Positions 2,594-44,529 of a stretch of DNA of 45,707 nucleotides are shown here, in pieces; the stretch's first letter is position 1; every line of letters starts with the position of its first letter. The notes below the pieces were generated by a model. It had not been told where the DNA came from. It was given only the letters and a program-made list of their open reading frames with translations, and made no database searches. The DNA lies in contig VXOC01000266.1 of NCBI GenBank assembly GCA_009840215.1, forward strand, positions 1 to 45,707, read 5' to 3'. The DNA comes from Gemmatimonadota bacterium (GTDB lineage Bacteria; Gemmatimonadota; Gemmatimonadetes; Longimicrobiales; Gaopeijiaceae). The translations under genes were made by a program, and so were the position numbers.

Positions 2594-3800
2594 AACACGG
2601 AGCAAGAATGGCGAAGGAGACCTTCGAGCGAACGAAGCCGCACGTGAACGTGGGGACGATTGGCCACGTGGACCACGGGAAGACGACCTTGACGGCGGCG
2701 ATCACGATGGCGCAGGCGAAGAAGTTCGGCGGGGACGCGGTGGAGTTCGACGAGATCGACAAGGCGCCGGAGGAGCGGGAGCGGGGCATCACGATCGCGA
2801 CGGCGCACGTGGAGTACGAGACGGCGAACCGGCACTACGCGCACGTGGACTGTCCGGGCCACGCGGACTACGTGAAGAACATGATCACGGGCGCGGCTCA
2901 GATGGACGGAGCGATCCTGGTGGTGAGCGCGGCGGACGGCCCGATGCCGCAGACGCGCGAGCACATCCTGCTGGCGCGGCAGGTGAACGTGCCGCACATC
3001 GTGGTCTTCCTGAACAAGGTGGACATGGTGGACGACGAGGAGCTGCTTGAGCTGGTGGAGCTGGAGGTTCGGGAGCTGCTGAGCGAGTTCGACTTCCCCG
3101 GAGACGACCTGCCGGTGGTGATGGGGAGCGCGCTGCACGCGCTGGAGGCCGGTGGCGAGGGCGAGGCGGGCGCGTGCATCGACGAGCTGATGGATGCGAT
3201 CGACACGTACATTCCGCAGCCGGAGCGCGACATCGACAAAGCGTTCCTGATGCCGGTGGAGGACGTGTTCTCGATCACGGGCCGGGGCACGGTGGCGACG
3301 GGCCGGATCGAGCGCGGGGTGATCCACAAGGGTGACACGGTGGAGATCGTCGGGATGGGAGAGGACCGCAAGACGGTGGTGACGGGGGTGGAGATGTTCC
3401 GCAAGATCCTGGAGCAGGGCCAGGCGGGAGACAACGCGGGGCTGCTGCTGCGGGGTGTGGGCAAGACGGAGATCAGCCGGGGCCAGGTGCTGGCGATACC
3501 GGGATCGATCACGCCGCACACGAAGTTCAAGGCGGAGGTGTACGTGCTGACGAAGGAGGAGGGGGGCCGTCACACGCCGTTCTTCCACGGGTACCGTCCG
3601 CAGTTCTACTTTCGCACGACGGACGTGACGGGTTCGGCGATGCTGCCCGACGGGGTGGAGATGGTGATGCCGGGGGACAACGTGCAGATGGAAGTGGAGC
3701 TGATCACGCCGATCGCGATGGACGAGGAGCTTCGCTTCGCGATCCGGGAAGGCGGCCGGACCGTGGGCGCCGGCGTCGTCACCGCCATCATCGAGTAGAG
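2594..3800 (+). repeat. Long direct repeat, copy 1 (tuf and its ribosome binding site)
   Basis: A 1207-base unit that appears identical to 18885-20091. It runs from 14 bases before the tuf ATG, including the GGAG ribosome binding site, to 2 bases after the TAG stop. Flanking bases differ at once on both sides. Identity ending so sharply at the gene edges is the usual mark of gene conversion between tuf paralogs. Confidence 0.9.
2608..3798 (+). CDS. tuf: Elongation factor Tu (copy 1)
   Basis: GTPase that brings aminoacyl-tRNA to the ribosomal A site. At 396 residues it has the standard length. G motifs are all present: GHVDHGKT (19-26), RGITI (59-63), DCPGHADY (81-88), NKVD (136-139) and GSAL (173-176). 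Domains 2 and 3 follow, with [14 protein letters not shown] and the C-terminal [14 protein letters not shown] is preceded by GGAG at a 6-base spacing. It follows four tRNAs and precedes secE, as in the classical tufB operon. Codon use is odd: Ala, Thr, Val and Pro are almost all GCG, ACG, GTG and CCG, unlike neighbouring genes, except in the last 15 or so codons, which turn to C-ending codons. The protein is identical to that of copy 2. Confidence 0.98.
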
Positions 3801-11184: not shown

Positions 11185-15534
<4,350 letters not shown>

Positions 15535-15586
15535 CAGAGGAGACGGAAATCCCGTTCAGGCTCATTTGCTTGGGCAAGACTTCCAT

Positions 15587-15614
15587 TTGACATTCCCCGA
15601 TATTTTGCTACCTT
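15587..15614 (+). promoter_or_regulatory. Candidate promoter of the str operon
   Basis: A perfect TTGACA (15587-15592) is followed after 16 bases by TACCTT (15609-15614). The region 15583-15620 is the most AT-rich in this part of the window. Transcription would start near 15621, leaving a leader of about 140 bases before rpsL. The -10 is a weak match (3 of 6), and TACCTTTT also resembles the TAnnTTTG element of Bacteroidetes promoters, so sigma specificity is open. Confidence 0.55.
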
Positions 15615-15625
15615 TTTCAGGCTGT

Positions 15626-15712
15626 CCAGGAAATCCCTGGAGGGTCGGCCTCCGGGACGGCTCGGGCGCGCTTGAACCCACTTCCAAGCGCGCCCTTGTT
15701 CCGCCCGGAGGC
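15626..15712 (+). promoter_or_regulatory. Structured 5' leader of rpsL (nested hairpins)
   Basis: Three perfect inverted repeats stack up. A small stem is CCAGG (15626-15630) with CCTGG (15636-15640). A large outer stem is GCCTCCGGG (15648-15656) with CCCGGAGGC (15704-15712). Inside it, across a 7/8-base internal loop, GGGCGCGCTTG (15664-15674) pairs with CAAGCGCGCCC (15685-15695) over a 10-base loop. TGGTTTTG follows the outer stem, a short T-run. The structure lies after the promoter and before rpsL. It could therefore be an attenuator or a protein-binding leader of the str operon, or the end of rpoC transcripts. Confidence 0.6.
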
Positions 15713-15763
15713 TGGTTTTGACGGATCCCCCTTCGGAAGTCACGAGGAACGATTTCGGCTCCC

Positions 15764-16135
15764 ATGCCCACTCTGAACCAGCTGGTGCGGAAGGGGCGCA
15801 AGCGGCTTGCCAGGAAGAACAAGTCGCCCGCGCTCCAGAAGAACCCCCAGAAGCGGGGGGTCTGCACCCGTGTGTACACCACCACCCCCAAGAAGCCCAA
15901 CTCCGCGCTGCGGAAGGTGGCTCGCGTGCGGCTGACCAACGGGTACGAGGTCACGGCGTACATCGGGGGCGAGGGTCACAACCTCCAGGAGCACTCCATC
16001 GTGCTGATTCGTGGGGGCCGGGTGCGGGATCTGCCCGGCGTGCGGTATCACATCGTCCGCGGAACGCTCGACACTTCGGGCGTGTCGGTCCGCAAGCAGG
16101 GACGGTCGAAGTACGGAGCCAAGCGGCCCAGGTAG
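15764..16135 (+). CDS. rpsL: Small-subunit ribosomal protein S12
   Basis: S12 sits in the decoding centre and controls accuracy. 123 residues, normal length. [15 protein letters not shown] opens it, then [19 protein letters not shown] with the wild-type Lys43 (E. coli numbering). In the second decoding loop the sequence is [13 protein letters not shown], so position 88 is Arg, where most bacteria have Lys. K88R is a known streptomycin-resistance change. The ATG at 15764 follows a structured leader. rpsG begins 24 bases after the stop. Confidence 0.97.
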
Positions 16136-16159
16136 GGCGCGCGGATTGGAGTTGACCTG

Positions 16160-16630: not shown

Positions 16631-16637
16631 GCCGTCC

Positions 16638-16691
16638 GCCCGCAGCCGGCTCCCGAGGGGCCGGCCCGAAGGGAGAGGACCTCCGGCGGGC
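16638..16691 (+). promoter_or_regulatory. Strong hairpin between rpsG and fusA
   Basis: GCCGGCTCC (16645-16653) pairs with GGGGCCGGC (16657-16665) around a CGA loop, nine pairs including one G-T. It is enclosed by GCCCGC (16638-16643) with GCGGGC (16686-16691). The 107-base spacer then contains TTTGACAGG and GTTGACG but no convincing -10. It may be a pause or partial terminator, an RNA-processing signal, or an S7 target. No T-run follows. Confidence 0.45.
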
Positions 16692-16737
16692 AGCTGTTTG
16701 ACAGGCGCAGAACGACGAGAGTTGACGAAATAGAGAT

Positions 16738-18855
<2,118 letters not shown>

Positions 18856-18884: not shown

Positions 18885-20091
18885 AACACGGAGCAAGAAT
18901 GGCGAAGGAGACCTTCGAGCGAACGAAGCCGCACGTGAACGTGGGGACGATTGGCCACGTGGACCACGGGAAGACGACCTTGACGGCGGCGATCACGATG
19001 GCGCAGGCGAAGAAGTTCGGCGGGGACGCGGTGGAGTTCGACGAGATCGACAAGGCGCCGGAGGAGCGGGAGCGGGGCATCACGATCGCGACGGCGCACG
19101 TGGAGTACGAGACGGCGAACCGGCACTACGCGCACGTGGACTGTCCGGGCCACGCGGACTACGTGAAGAACATGATCACGGGCGCGGCTCAGATGGACGG
19201 AGCGATCCTGGTGGTGAGCGCGGCGGACGGCCCGATGCCGCAGACGCGCGAGCACATCCTGCTGGCGCGGCAGGTGAACGTGCCGCACATCGTGGTCTTC
19301 CTGAACAAGGTGGACATGGTGGACGACGAGGAGCTGCTTGAGCTGGTGGAGCTGGAGGTTCGGGAGCTGCTGAGCGAGTTCGACTTCCCCGGAGACGACC
19401 TGCCGGTGGTGATGGGGAGCGCGCTGCACGCGCTGGAGGCCGGTGGCGAGGGCGAGGCGGGCGCGTGCATCGACGAGCTGATGGATGCGATCGACACGTA
19501 CATTCCGCAGCCGGAGCGCGACATCGACAAAGCGTTCCTGATGCCGGTGGAGGACGTGTTCTCGATCACGGGCCGGGGCACGGTGGCGACGGGCCGGATC
19601 GAGCGCGGGGTGATCCACAAGGGTGACACGGTGGAGATCGTCGGGATGGGAGAGGACCGCAAGACGGTGGTGACGGGGGTGGAGATGTTCCGCAAGATCC
19701 TGGAGCAGGGCCAGGCGGGAGACAACGCGGGGCTGCTGCTGCGGGGTGTGGGCAAGACGGAGATCAGCCGGGGCCAGGTGCTGGCGATACCGGGATCGAT
19801 CACGCCGCACACGAAGTTCAAGGCGGAGGTGTACGTGCTGACGAAGGAGGAGGGGGGCCGTCACACGCCGTTCTTCCACGGGTACCGTCCGCAGTTCTAC
19901 TTTCGCACGACGGACGTGACGGGTTCGGCGATGCTGCCCGACGGGGTGGAGATGGTGATGCCGGGGGACAACGTGCAGATGGAAGTGGAGCTGATCACGC
20001 CGATCGCGATGGACGAGGAGCTTCGCTTCGCGATCCGGGAAGGCGGCCGGACCGTGGGCGCCGGCGTCGTCACCGCCATCATCGAGTAGAG
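18885..20091 (+). repeat. Long direct repeat, copy 2 (tuf and its ribosome binding site)
   Basis: Partner of 2594-3800, same strand, 1207 bases, apparently identical. Recombination between the two would delete or circularise about 16.3 kb carrying rpoBC and the L11 and str genes, so only gene conversion is tolerable. Confidence 0.9.
18899..20089 (+). CDS. tuf: Elongation factor Tu (copy 2)
   Basis: Same 396-residue protein as the copy at 2608, with the same G motifs ([29 protein letters not shown]). This is the tufA position, last gene of the str operon after fusA, as in E. coli. The leader before the repeat is only about 30 bases and lacks the hairpins seen before the other copy, so the two are probably controlled differently. 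The same G-ending codon bias is present, with the shift to C-ending codons in the last 15 or so codons. rpsJ starts 15 bases after the stop. Confidence 0.98.
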
Positions 20092-21100: not shown

Positions 21101-21228
21101 GCAGCCCATGAACAGAATCCCCCCGGCATTCGAGCGGCGAGGCATCCAGGCTGGGCCGCTTTGCTCGCCGGTTCACACTGTAAAGACAACATTACAAAAT
21201 GTCATGTTCAGTATACATATTCTGTCCC

Positions 21229-21352
21229 TGAGGCTTCGCTCTGCGTTGCTCCTCCGCCGAATAGCCCTGCTATTCGCCCCTCGTCGCGCCTTGCCAGCCC
21301 GGCGCCTCACCGCTCTCGGTGCTCGGGCGGCTCTGCCCACGGACTGCTGACC
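21229..21352. repeat. REP-like dispersed repeat, copy A (full length)
   Basis: The unit lies between rplC and rplD. Its left part has a perfect hairpin, CGAATAG (21258-21264) with CTATTCG (21270-21276). Its right part (about 21287-21339) shares a run of 27 identical bases, beginning CCTTGCCAGCCCGG, with the copy at 37717-37773, and a looser match with 39730-39778. A second hairpin, CCGCTC with GGGCGG, lies near 21311-21331. The unit ends with GGACTGCTGACC against the rplD ATG. The preceding 21165-21228 is AT-rich (TATACA at 21212-21217) and unlike anything nearby. Confidence 0.65.

Positions 21353-41208: not shown

Positions 41209-44529
<3,321 letters not shown>

Follow-up and report, generated by a model that had tools for sequence, protein, structure and literature searches.

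A structured leader lies upstream of rpsL in the window, by which we mean the whole 45,707-nt stretch of DNA analyzed here. It is real and conserved within its genus, and most likely is a lineage-specific version of the attenuator known upstream of rpsL elsewhere. Its promoter-like sequence and its hairpins, their conservation and the U-tracts in relatives are directly observed. We consider it somewhat probable that the element serves the rpsL-rpsG-fusA-tuf operon as a promoter-proximal transcription attenuator, i.e., as a terminator that acts conditionally.

The leader in its gene setting

The genes around the leader are ordered tuf, secE, nusG, rplK ... rpoB, rpoC, rpsL, rpsG, fusA, tuf, rpsJ ..., where the names were assigned by apparent similarity and the order of rpsG and fusA is that of the str operon. 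The rpoC stop codon is at 15534, the leader element lies about 90 to 180 nt 3' of it, and rpsL and rpsG are separated by a gap of 24 nt (16136-16159). The preliminary description had reported an outer stem of 9 pairs enclosing a perfect inner stem of 11 pairs, a stem upstream of them and a T-run, all located between a TTGACA promoter and rpsL. The sequence bore out this location, and all of the parts are present where they had been placed. The features are as follows:

15587-15614, plus strand: promoter as read from the sequence, with -35 region TTGACA (15587-15592), a 16-nt spacer and -10 region TACCTT (15609-15614)
15620-15633, plus strand: near-invariant putative transcript start GGCTGTCCAGGAAA (strand 1), from alignment A1 of 22 leaders
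15625-15641, plus strand: P1, small 5' hairpin of 6 pairs, TCCAGG (15625-15630) with CCTGGA (15636-15641), from the predicted fold
15636-15656, plus strand: Palt, alternative hairpin, CCTGGAGG (15636-15643) with CCTCCGGG (15649-15656), from a fold with strand 1 held free
15648-15712, plus strand: P2, outer stem of 9 pairs, GCCTCCGGG (15648-15656) with CCCGGAGGC (15704-15712)
15664-15695, plus strand: P3, inner stem of 11 perfect pairs, GGGCGCGCTTG (15664-15674) with CAAGCGCGCCC (15685-15695)
15696-15700, plus strand: TTGTT, weak U-tract directly 3' of P3, absent from the preliminary description
15716-15719, plus strand: TTTT 3' of the outer stem
15744-15749, plus strand: GAGGAA, likely ribosome-binding site of rpsL
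15764-16135, plus strand: rpsL (S12), with its ATG at 15764 and a match to Pfam PF00164
16160-16630, plus strand: rpsG, named by apparent similarity
16738-18855, plus strand: fusA, named by apparent similarity

P3 is the proposed (ancestral) terminator hairpin, and P2 continues beyond a bulge in the predicted fold. Within the own draft genome, an exact copy of GGCTGTCCAGGAAA was present at the leader only.

The stretch from 15617 to 15775 folded with a predicted energy of -80.4 kcal/mol, compared to -61.25 ± 4.03 kcal/mol for 200 dinucleotide shuffles (z = -4.75). None of the 200 shuffles reached as low an energy, and the earlier judgement that the structure is beyond chance thus held. When the 98 nt of the leader (-67.3) were compared with 4562 sliding 98-nt stretches covering both strands of the window, one other stretch was as good (-68.0), so that the leader does not stand alone but is one of two stretches of the window with the strongest predicted structure. 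The other stretch, located at 44321-44418 on the minus strand opposite a secA-like frame, had a z of -3.15, its energy being reached by 1 of 200 shuffles, and the wider plus-strand stretch around 44.3 kb had a z of 0.09.

The own genome is a draft assembly of 370 contigs. The two tuf genes of the window (2608-3798 and 18899-20089) encode 396-residue products that are apparently identical by eye, and this repeat may explain why the contigs of relatives frequently break off next to the str operon. A further gap, between rplC and a rplD-like gene in the S10 operon (21101-21352; 250 nt), contained one promoter-like match per strand.

At the gathering thresholds of Rfam, the window matched four tRNAs only, and no curated family was found for the leader. 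The matches obtained at higher E values for the window leader and for 11 relatives were far below gathering, mostly to microRNA models, and were rejected. A candidate second copy of the leader in the own genome, a 27-nt match on contig C320, was also discarded, as it falls inside a coding frame. The promoter-plus-CTGTC pattern had no more matches in the genome than a reversed-pattern control; its one other match, near a contig end beside a frame that looked transposase-like by eye, was not retained. No rRNA was seen by eye in a tRNA-Ile stretch of genome G021.

Conservation and terminator-like signals in relatives

In the following, g1 and f1 denote the genus and the family of the window, and G and L numbers denote sampled genomes and leaders. 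The element was found upstream of rpsL in all 21 g1 genomes with a detected rpsL (23 genomes were sampled, G009 and G013 being without a detected rpsL) and in G173 of the neighboring genus g42. Similarity of the leader at the DNA level was limited to g1, i.e., to 20 of the 59 genomes searched (own included) and to one of 31 genera. Alignment A1 comprises the 21 leaders from g1 and the one from g42. Here, GGCTGTCCAGGAAA, the P3 stem and TTGTTC are nearly invariant, and pairing was kept in 97.6% of the cells for P1, 100% for P3 and 99.1% for both together. None of the P1 pairs was changed on both sides and six of the 11 P3 pairs never vary; with one of 17 pairs double-changed, covariation in P1 and P3 was no better than in shuffles (143 of 500). 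Since the stems hardly vary, covariation is uninformative in g1. A terminator alone should not require such invariance of P3 and the TTGTTC tail, which suggests sequence-specific recognition.

The sequence of P2 differs between clades, and its pairing is kept in relatives. Judged by duplex energies, arms from the same species fitted better than swapped arms when compared over sequences (6 of 20000 permutations as good). Over the seven clades, arm specificity was not significant (366 of 5040 permutations as good), and the duplex energies are therefore not counted as proof.

We further analyzed a set of 148 rpsL upstream regions, own included, which was composed of 49 from the 59 relatives and 99 hand-picked among the class and phylum genomes listed. 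One of these leaders (L022) comprises only 51 nt due to a misplaced stop, and some contigs end early. By a loose rule, a promoter-like pair was called upstream of rpsL in 142 of the 148 regions, with four of the five sites called in family f9 looking misplaced. CTGT was present at most 22 nt from the called -10 region in 87 of the 148. A first detector found a hairpin followed by a U-tract between promoter and rpsL in 79 regions compared to 6.3 expected. These were distributed as follows: g1 19 of 21, other f1 genera 30 of 69, f2 5 of 6, f3 8 of 12, f4 8 of 13, f6 2 of 8, f7 1 of 7, f9 4 of 5, f10 2 of 3 and f11 0 of 4. A second detector, which demands a perfect stem and allows loops of up to 10 nt, likewise flagged 79 of 148 (8.0 expected), among them 14 of the 21 from g1. 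No terminator was detected in most leaders of families f6, f7 and f11 and of genera g12 and g32.

In many leaders from other genera and families, at least five T follow a stem whose sequence is unrelated. Often in other families a common plan was seen, consisting of promoter, CUGUC-type start, 5' hairpin, GC-rich hairpin with U-tract, and rpsL. The families thus have the arrangement in common rather than the sequences of their stems, which are mostly unrelated. In f3, the 5' hairpin starts in CUGUC and the terminator follows directly. For 11 of the 12 f3 leaders (L061, whose leader differs and whose anchor matched the wrong place, was left out), 92.2% of the cells were paired, a value reached by 3 of 500 shuffles, and 3 of 17 pairs were changed on both sides, a number reached by 92 of 500 shuffles; the set contains nine distinct sequences. 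The preliminary description had suggested a comparison of rpsL upstream regions from relatives, with a lack of conservation or covariation counting against it. The description was not refuted in this way, as the leader proved strongly conserved; covariation was at shuffle level in g1 and modest in f3. The rpsL leaders of f11, a family of the same phylum, are about 29 nt long (L260-L263), and three of the four start near AGCTCTTTA or GACTCTTT; no terminator was detected in them. These starts resemble boxA.

The window's clade, represented by six leaders, deviates from the genus in the region 3' of P3. The 8 bases following P3 contain five or six T in 17 of the 22 leaders of A1 vs. four in the window and four near relatives. 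The outer stem of this clade has at least nine predicted pairs, and in five of the six leaders it is followed by GGTTTTG. The first detector flagged the outer stem in L004, in L034 and in the window, where the hit was to the outer stem with TGGTTTTG only, and the inner stem in L003; in L005 and L012 it flagged nothing. The second detector, with loops of up to 10 nt, flagged nothing in the window leader. The 'nested' terminator is thus a feature of this clade, and the inner hairpin with its U-tract, which is common to the genus, is probably older.

A possible switch is seen in the predicted folds. In Palt, the 3' strand of P1 would pair with the 5' arm of P2 before the 3' arm of P2 is made; this pairing excludes P1 and P2 and does not compete with the P3 stem. 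The predicted energies of P1 and Palt were at most 2.2 kcal/mol apart in clades b to e, and in the window's clade P1 was favored by 4.9 to 6.5 kcal/mol. Compared to shuffled spacers, Palt pairing was on average 1.4 to 3.2 SD better in clades a to e (e being a single sequence), and no gain was found in clades f and g, each of which is represented by one sequence; the comparison with shuffles gave p = 0.09 for the window by itself. No strand competing with P3 was seen in the leader, which argues against a classical antiterminator. In the predicted fold of the full-length leader, P2 closes over the U-tract of P3.

The fusA-associated copy and the rpsG-fusA gap

The 22 leaders of A1 served to build a covariance model (R1), which matches them by construction and was searched against 295 genomes of the class. 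It yielded one further strong match, located upstream of fusA in genome G095 (E = 4.9e-12; next match 5.8e-6). A weak match, L304, was dismissed as a terminator-like repeat 3' of a reading frame. In G095, whose rpsL is 92% identical, a long frame on the opposite strand (L311 1154-4003) parts rpsL-rpsG from fusA. The fusA copy has the promoter-like pair, CTGTCCAGGAAA, P1, P3 and the U-rich tail together. Upstream of rpsL in this genome, a promoter-like pair and a hairpin are present in the leader, but no terminator was detected. This distribution argues against autoregulation by S12 or S7 as the whole story.

The gap between rpsG and fusA (16631-16737 in the window; 102-117 nt in the genus) contains in g1 a conserved hairpin, which in most copies ends near CCGGCGGG with CTGTTTGACAG following. 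A longer gap is the rule in other f1 genera, where it often harbors a clear attenuator of the form GCGATGGCCC...GGAGCGCGG...CCGCGCTCC with a T-run. Terminator-like hairpins were detected in this gap in 23 of 38 cases from other f1 genera (2.5 expected) and in 8 of 18 from g1 (0.1 expected); in the gap of the window, the detector flagged none. For other families the count was 3 of 23 (f2 0 of 6, f3 1 of 9, f4 0 of 2 and f6 1 of 3, with f9 0 of 1, f10 0 of 1 and f11 1 of 1 as further families). In three f7 genomes, fusA was not found within the 1.1 kb examined. In f1, termination control thus seems to be linked with fusA no less than with rpsL.

Known systems, mechanism and alternatives

The Rfam family RF01774 (rpsL_ricks), which we take to be a Rickettsia leader, is by its name likewise an rpsL-associated RNA. 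It had no match in 15530-15780 at E values up to 10 and none in the own genome, where the control genomes were silent too, so that the genome search alone does not show its absence. The S10-operon leader of E. coli, which is bound by L4, acts by attenuation with a terminator-type hairpin and without an obvious antiterminator. By description it resembles the window leader as a ribosomal-protein operon leader with a terminator-type hairpin, but it belongs to another operon.

According to Naville and Gautheret (2010; PMC2965389), rpsL attenuators are 'multiform' across Listeria, Xanthomonas, Pseudomonas, Rickettsia and streptococci, the streptococcal one being located upstream of fusA, and no sequence or structure is common between the lineages. 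The window leader shares with them the terminator hairpin and T-stretch upstream of rpsL, which was found in 79 of the 148 regions sampled and is weak in the window. By description it differs in that potential antiterminators were given there for the elements with a derived consensus, whereas no strand competing with P3 was seen here. Novelty is limited, because rpsL attenuators were already presented there as a structurally diverse kind. The rpsL motif of Candidatus Pelagibacter ubique (PMC2704228) is located between rpoC and rpsL and occasionally upstream of rpsG or fusA, and is thought to regulate the operon. Its place and the occasional association with fusA are similar, but the motif is described with a bulged P1 and a three-stem junction, whereas separate hairpins, P1 and P2/P3, are predicted for the window. 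The S7 site of E. coli (PMC10931766) mediates repression of translation from a position between rpsL and rpsG. It thus acts on the same operon, but its target is in the gap that here has only 24 nt, in agreement with the preliminary view that the leader is not this site. In the excerpt of a survey of 20 new r-leaders (PMC7247131) no S12 leader was noticed, and the main text of a 50-genome survey with 30 ribosomal-leader candidates (PMC11109978), as excerpted, is without the words rpsL or Gemmatimon. Among the matches listed from the open-licence literature, nothing published was found on the rpsL leader of this lineage.

For the attenuator, we infer transcript start, termination, regulation and a trans factor from the features above. 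RNA polymerase would start at about 15620 and make P1 and then the GC-rich P3. A fraction of the polymerases would stop at the U-rich stretch 3' of P3, and the remaining ones would read through, with P2 closing over P3 and the operon being expressed. A trans-acting factor that reads the invariant 5' strand GGCUGUCCAGGAAA probably determines the degree of read-through, possibly via the choice between P1 and Palt. In the window's clade, termination may have shifted to about 15716-15720, as suggested by the weak inner U-tract and the long outer stem with TTTT.

Other explanations have to be weighed against this one. S7 (or S12) might bind the leader, promote termination and replace the E. coli S7 site. 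Ribosomal-protein leaders are common, conservation of the 5' strand and of P3 goes beyond pairing, and the 24-nt rpsL-rpsG gap probably leaves too little room for a site like that of E. coli, judged by the size of the latter; the leader upstream of fusA in G095, with an rpsL leader lacking a detected terminator, speaks against such autoregulation in this one genome, and we regard it as rather unlikely. The preliminary description had proposed 'a new ribosomal-protein leader or an attenuator'. The conserved attenuator layout supports the second term, but the first is unsupported as stated, because one relative has the element upstream of fusA rather than rpsL. It appears improbable that P1 and the nested P2/P3 form a 5' stability element that shields the read-through mRNA from nucleases, with the U-tract being incidental. 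Only some 5 nt separate P1 from the presumed transcript start, the U-tract is covered by P2 in the predicted full-length leader and the inner U-tract of the window is weak, as such an element might have it. However, U-tracts after GC-rich stems, mostly of unrelated sequence, recur in other f1 genera and in f2, f3, f4, f9 and f10, and stabilization would not need them.

The position of the element about 90 to 180 nt 3' of the rpoC stop codon (15534) would also suit a terminator of the upstream rpoBC operon. This function is highly improbable as the main one and largely refuted, since the element lies 3' of a promoter-like pair in all 21 g1 leaders and no rpoC precedes the G095 copy upstream of fusA within the stretch inspected. 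A leader-peptide attenuator based on ribosome stalling can practically be dismissed: an ATG, GTG or TTG occurs between the presumed transcript start and P3 in 11 of the 22 leaders, but no start codon is present in the other 11, including the window, and the existing frames vary in position and length.

The transcription attenuator that we favor can be extended to a more speculative model, which we consider distinctly doubtful in its entirety. The str operon of f1 would carry twin attenuators, a pre-rpsL one that is class-wide in kind and an independent one between rpsG and fusA. As its signal, this scheme would use the elongation factor supply or the state of the transcription apparatus rather than S12 or S7, and the leader would accompany fusA upon splitting of the operon, as in G095. 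The trans factor would read the invariant CUGUC-type 5' strand, which presumably resembles boxA and might be a boxA-like antitermination site for NusB/S10, with P1/Palt setting the read-through. G095 is a natural experiment that parts the regulation of fusA from that of rpsL, and it makes testable what rpsL attenuators sense. Little is known about how ribosomal proteins and elongation factors are matched outside the well-studied bacterial groups. If the attenuator reading is true, many members of the class would control S12, S7, EF-G and EF-Tu by premature termination.
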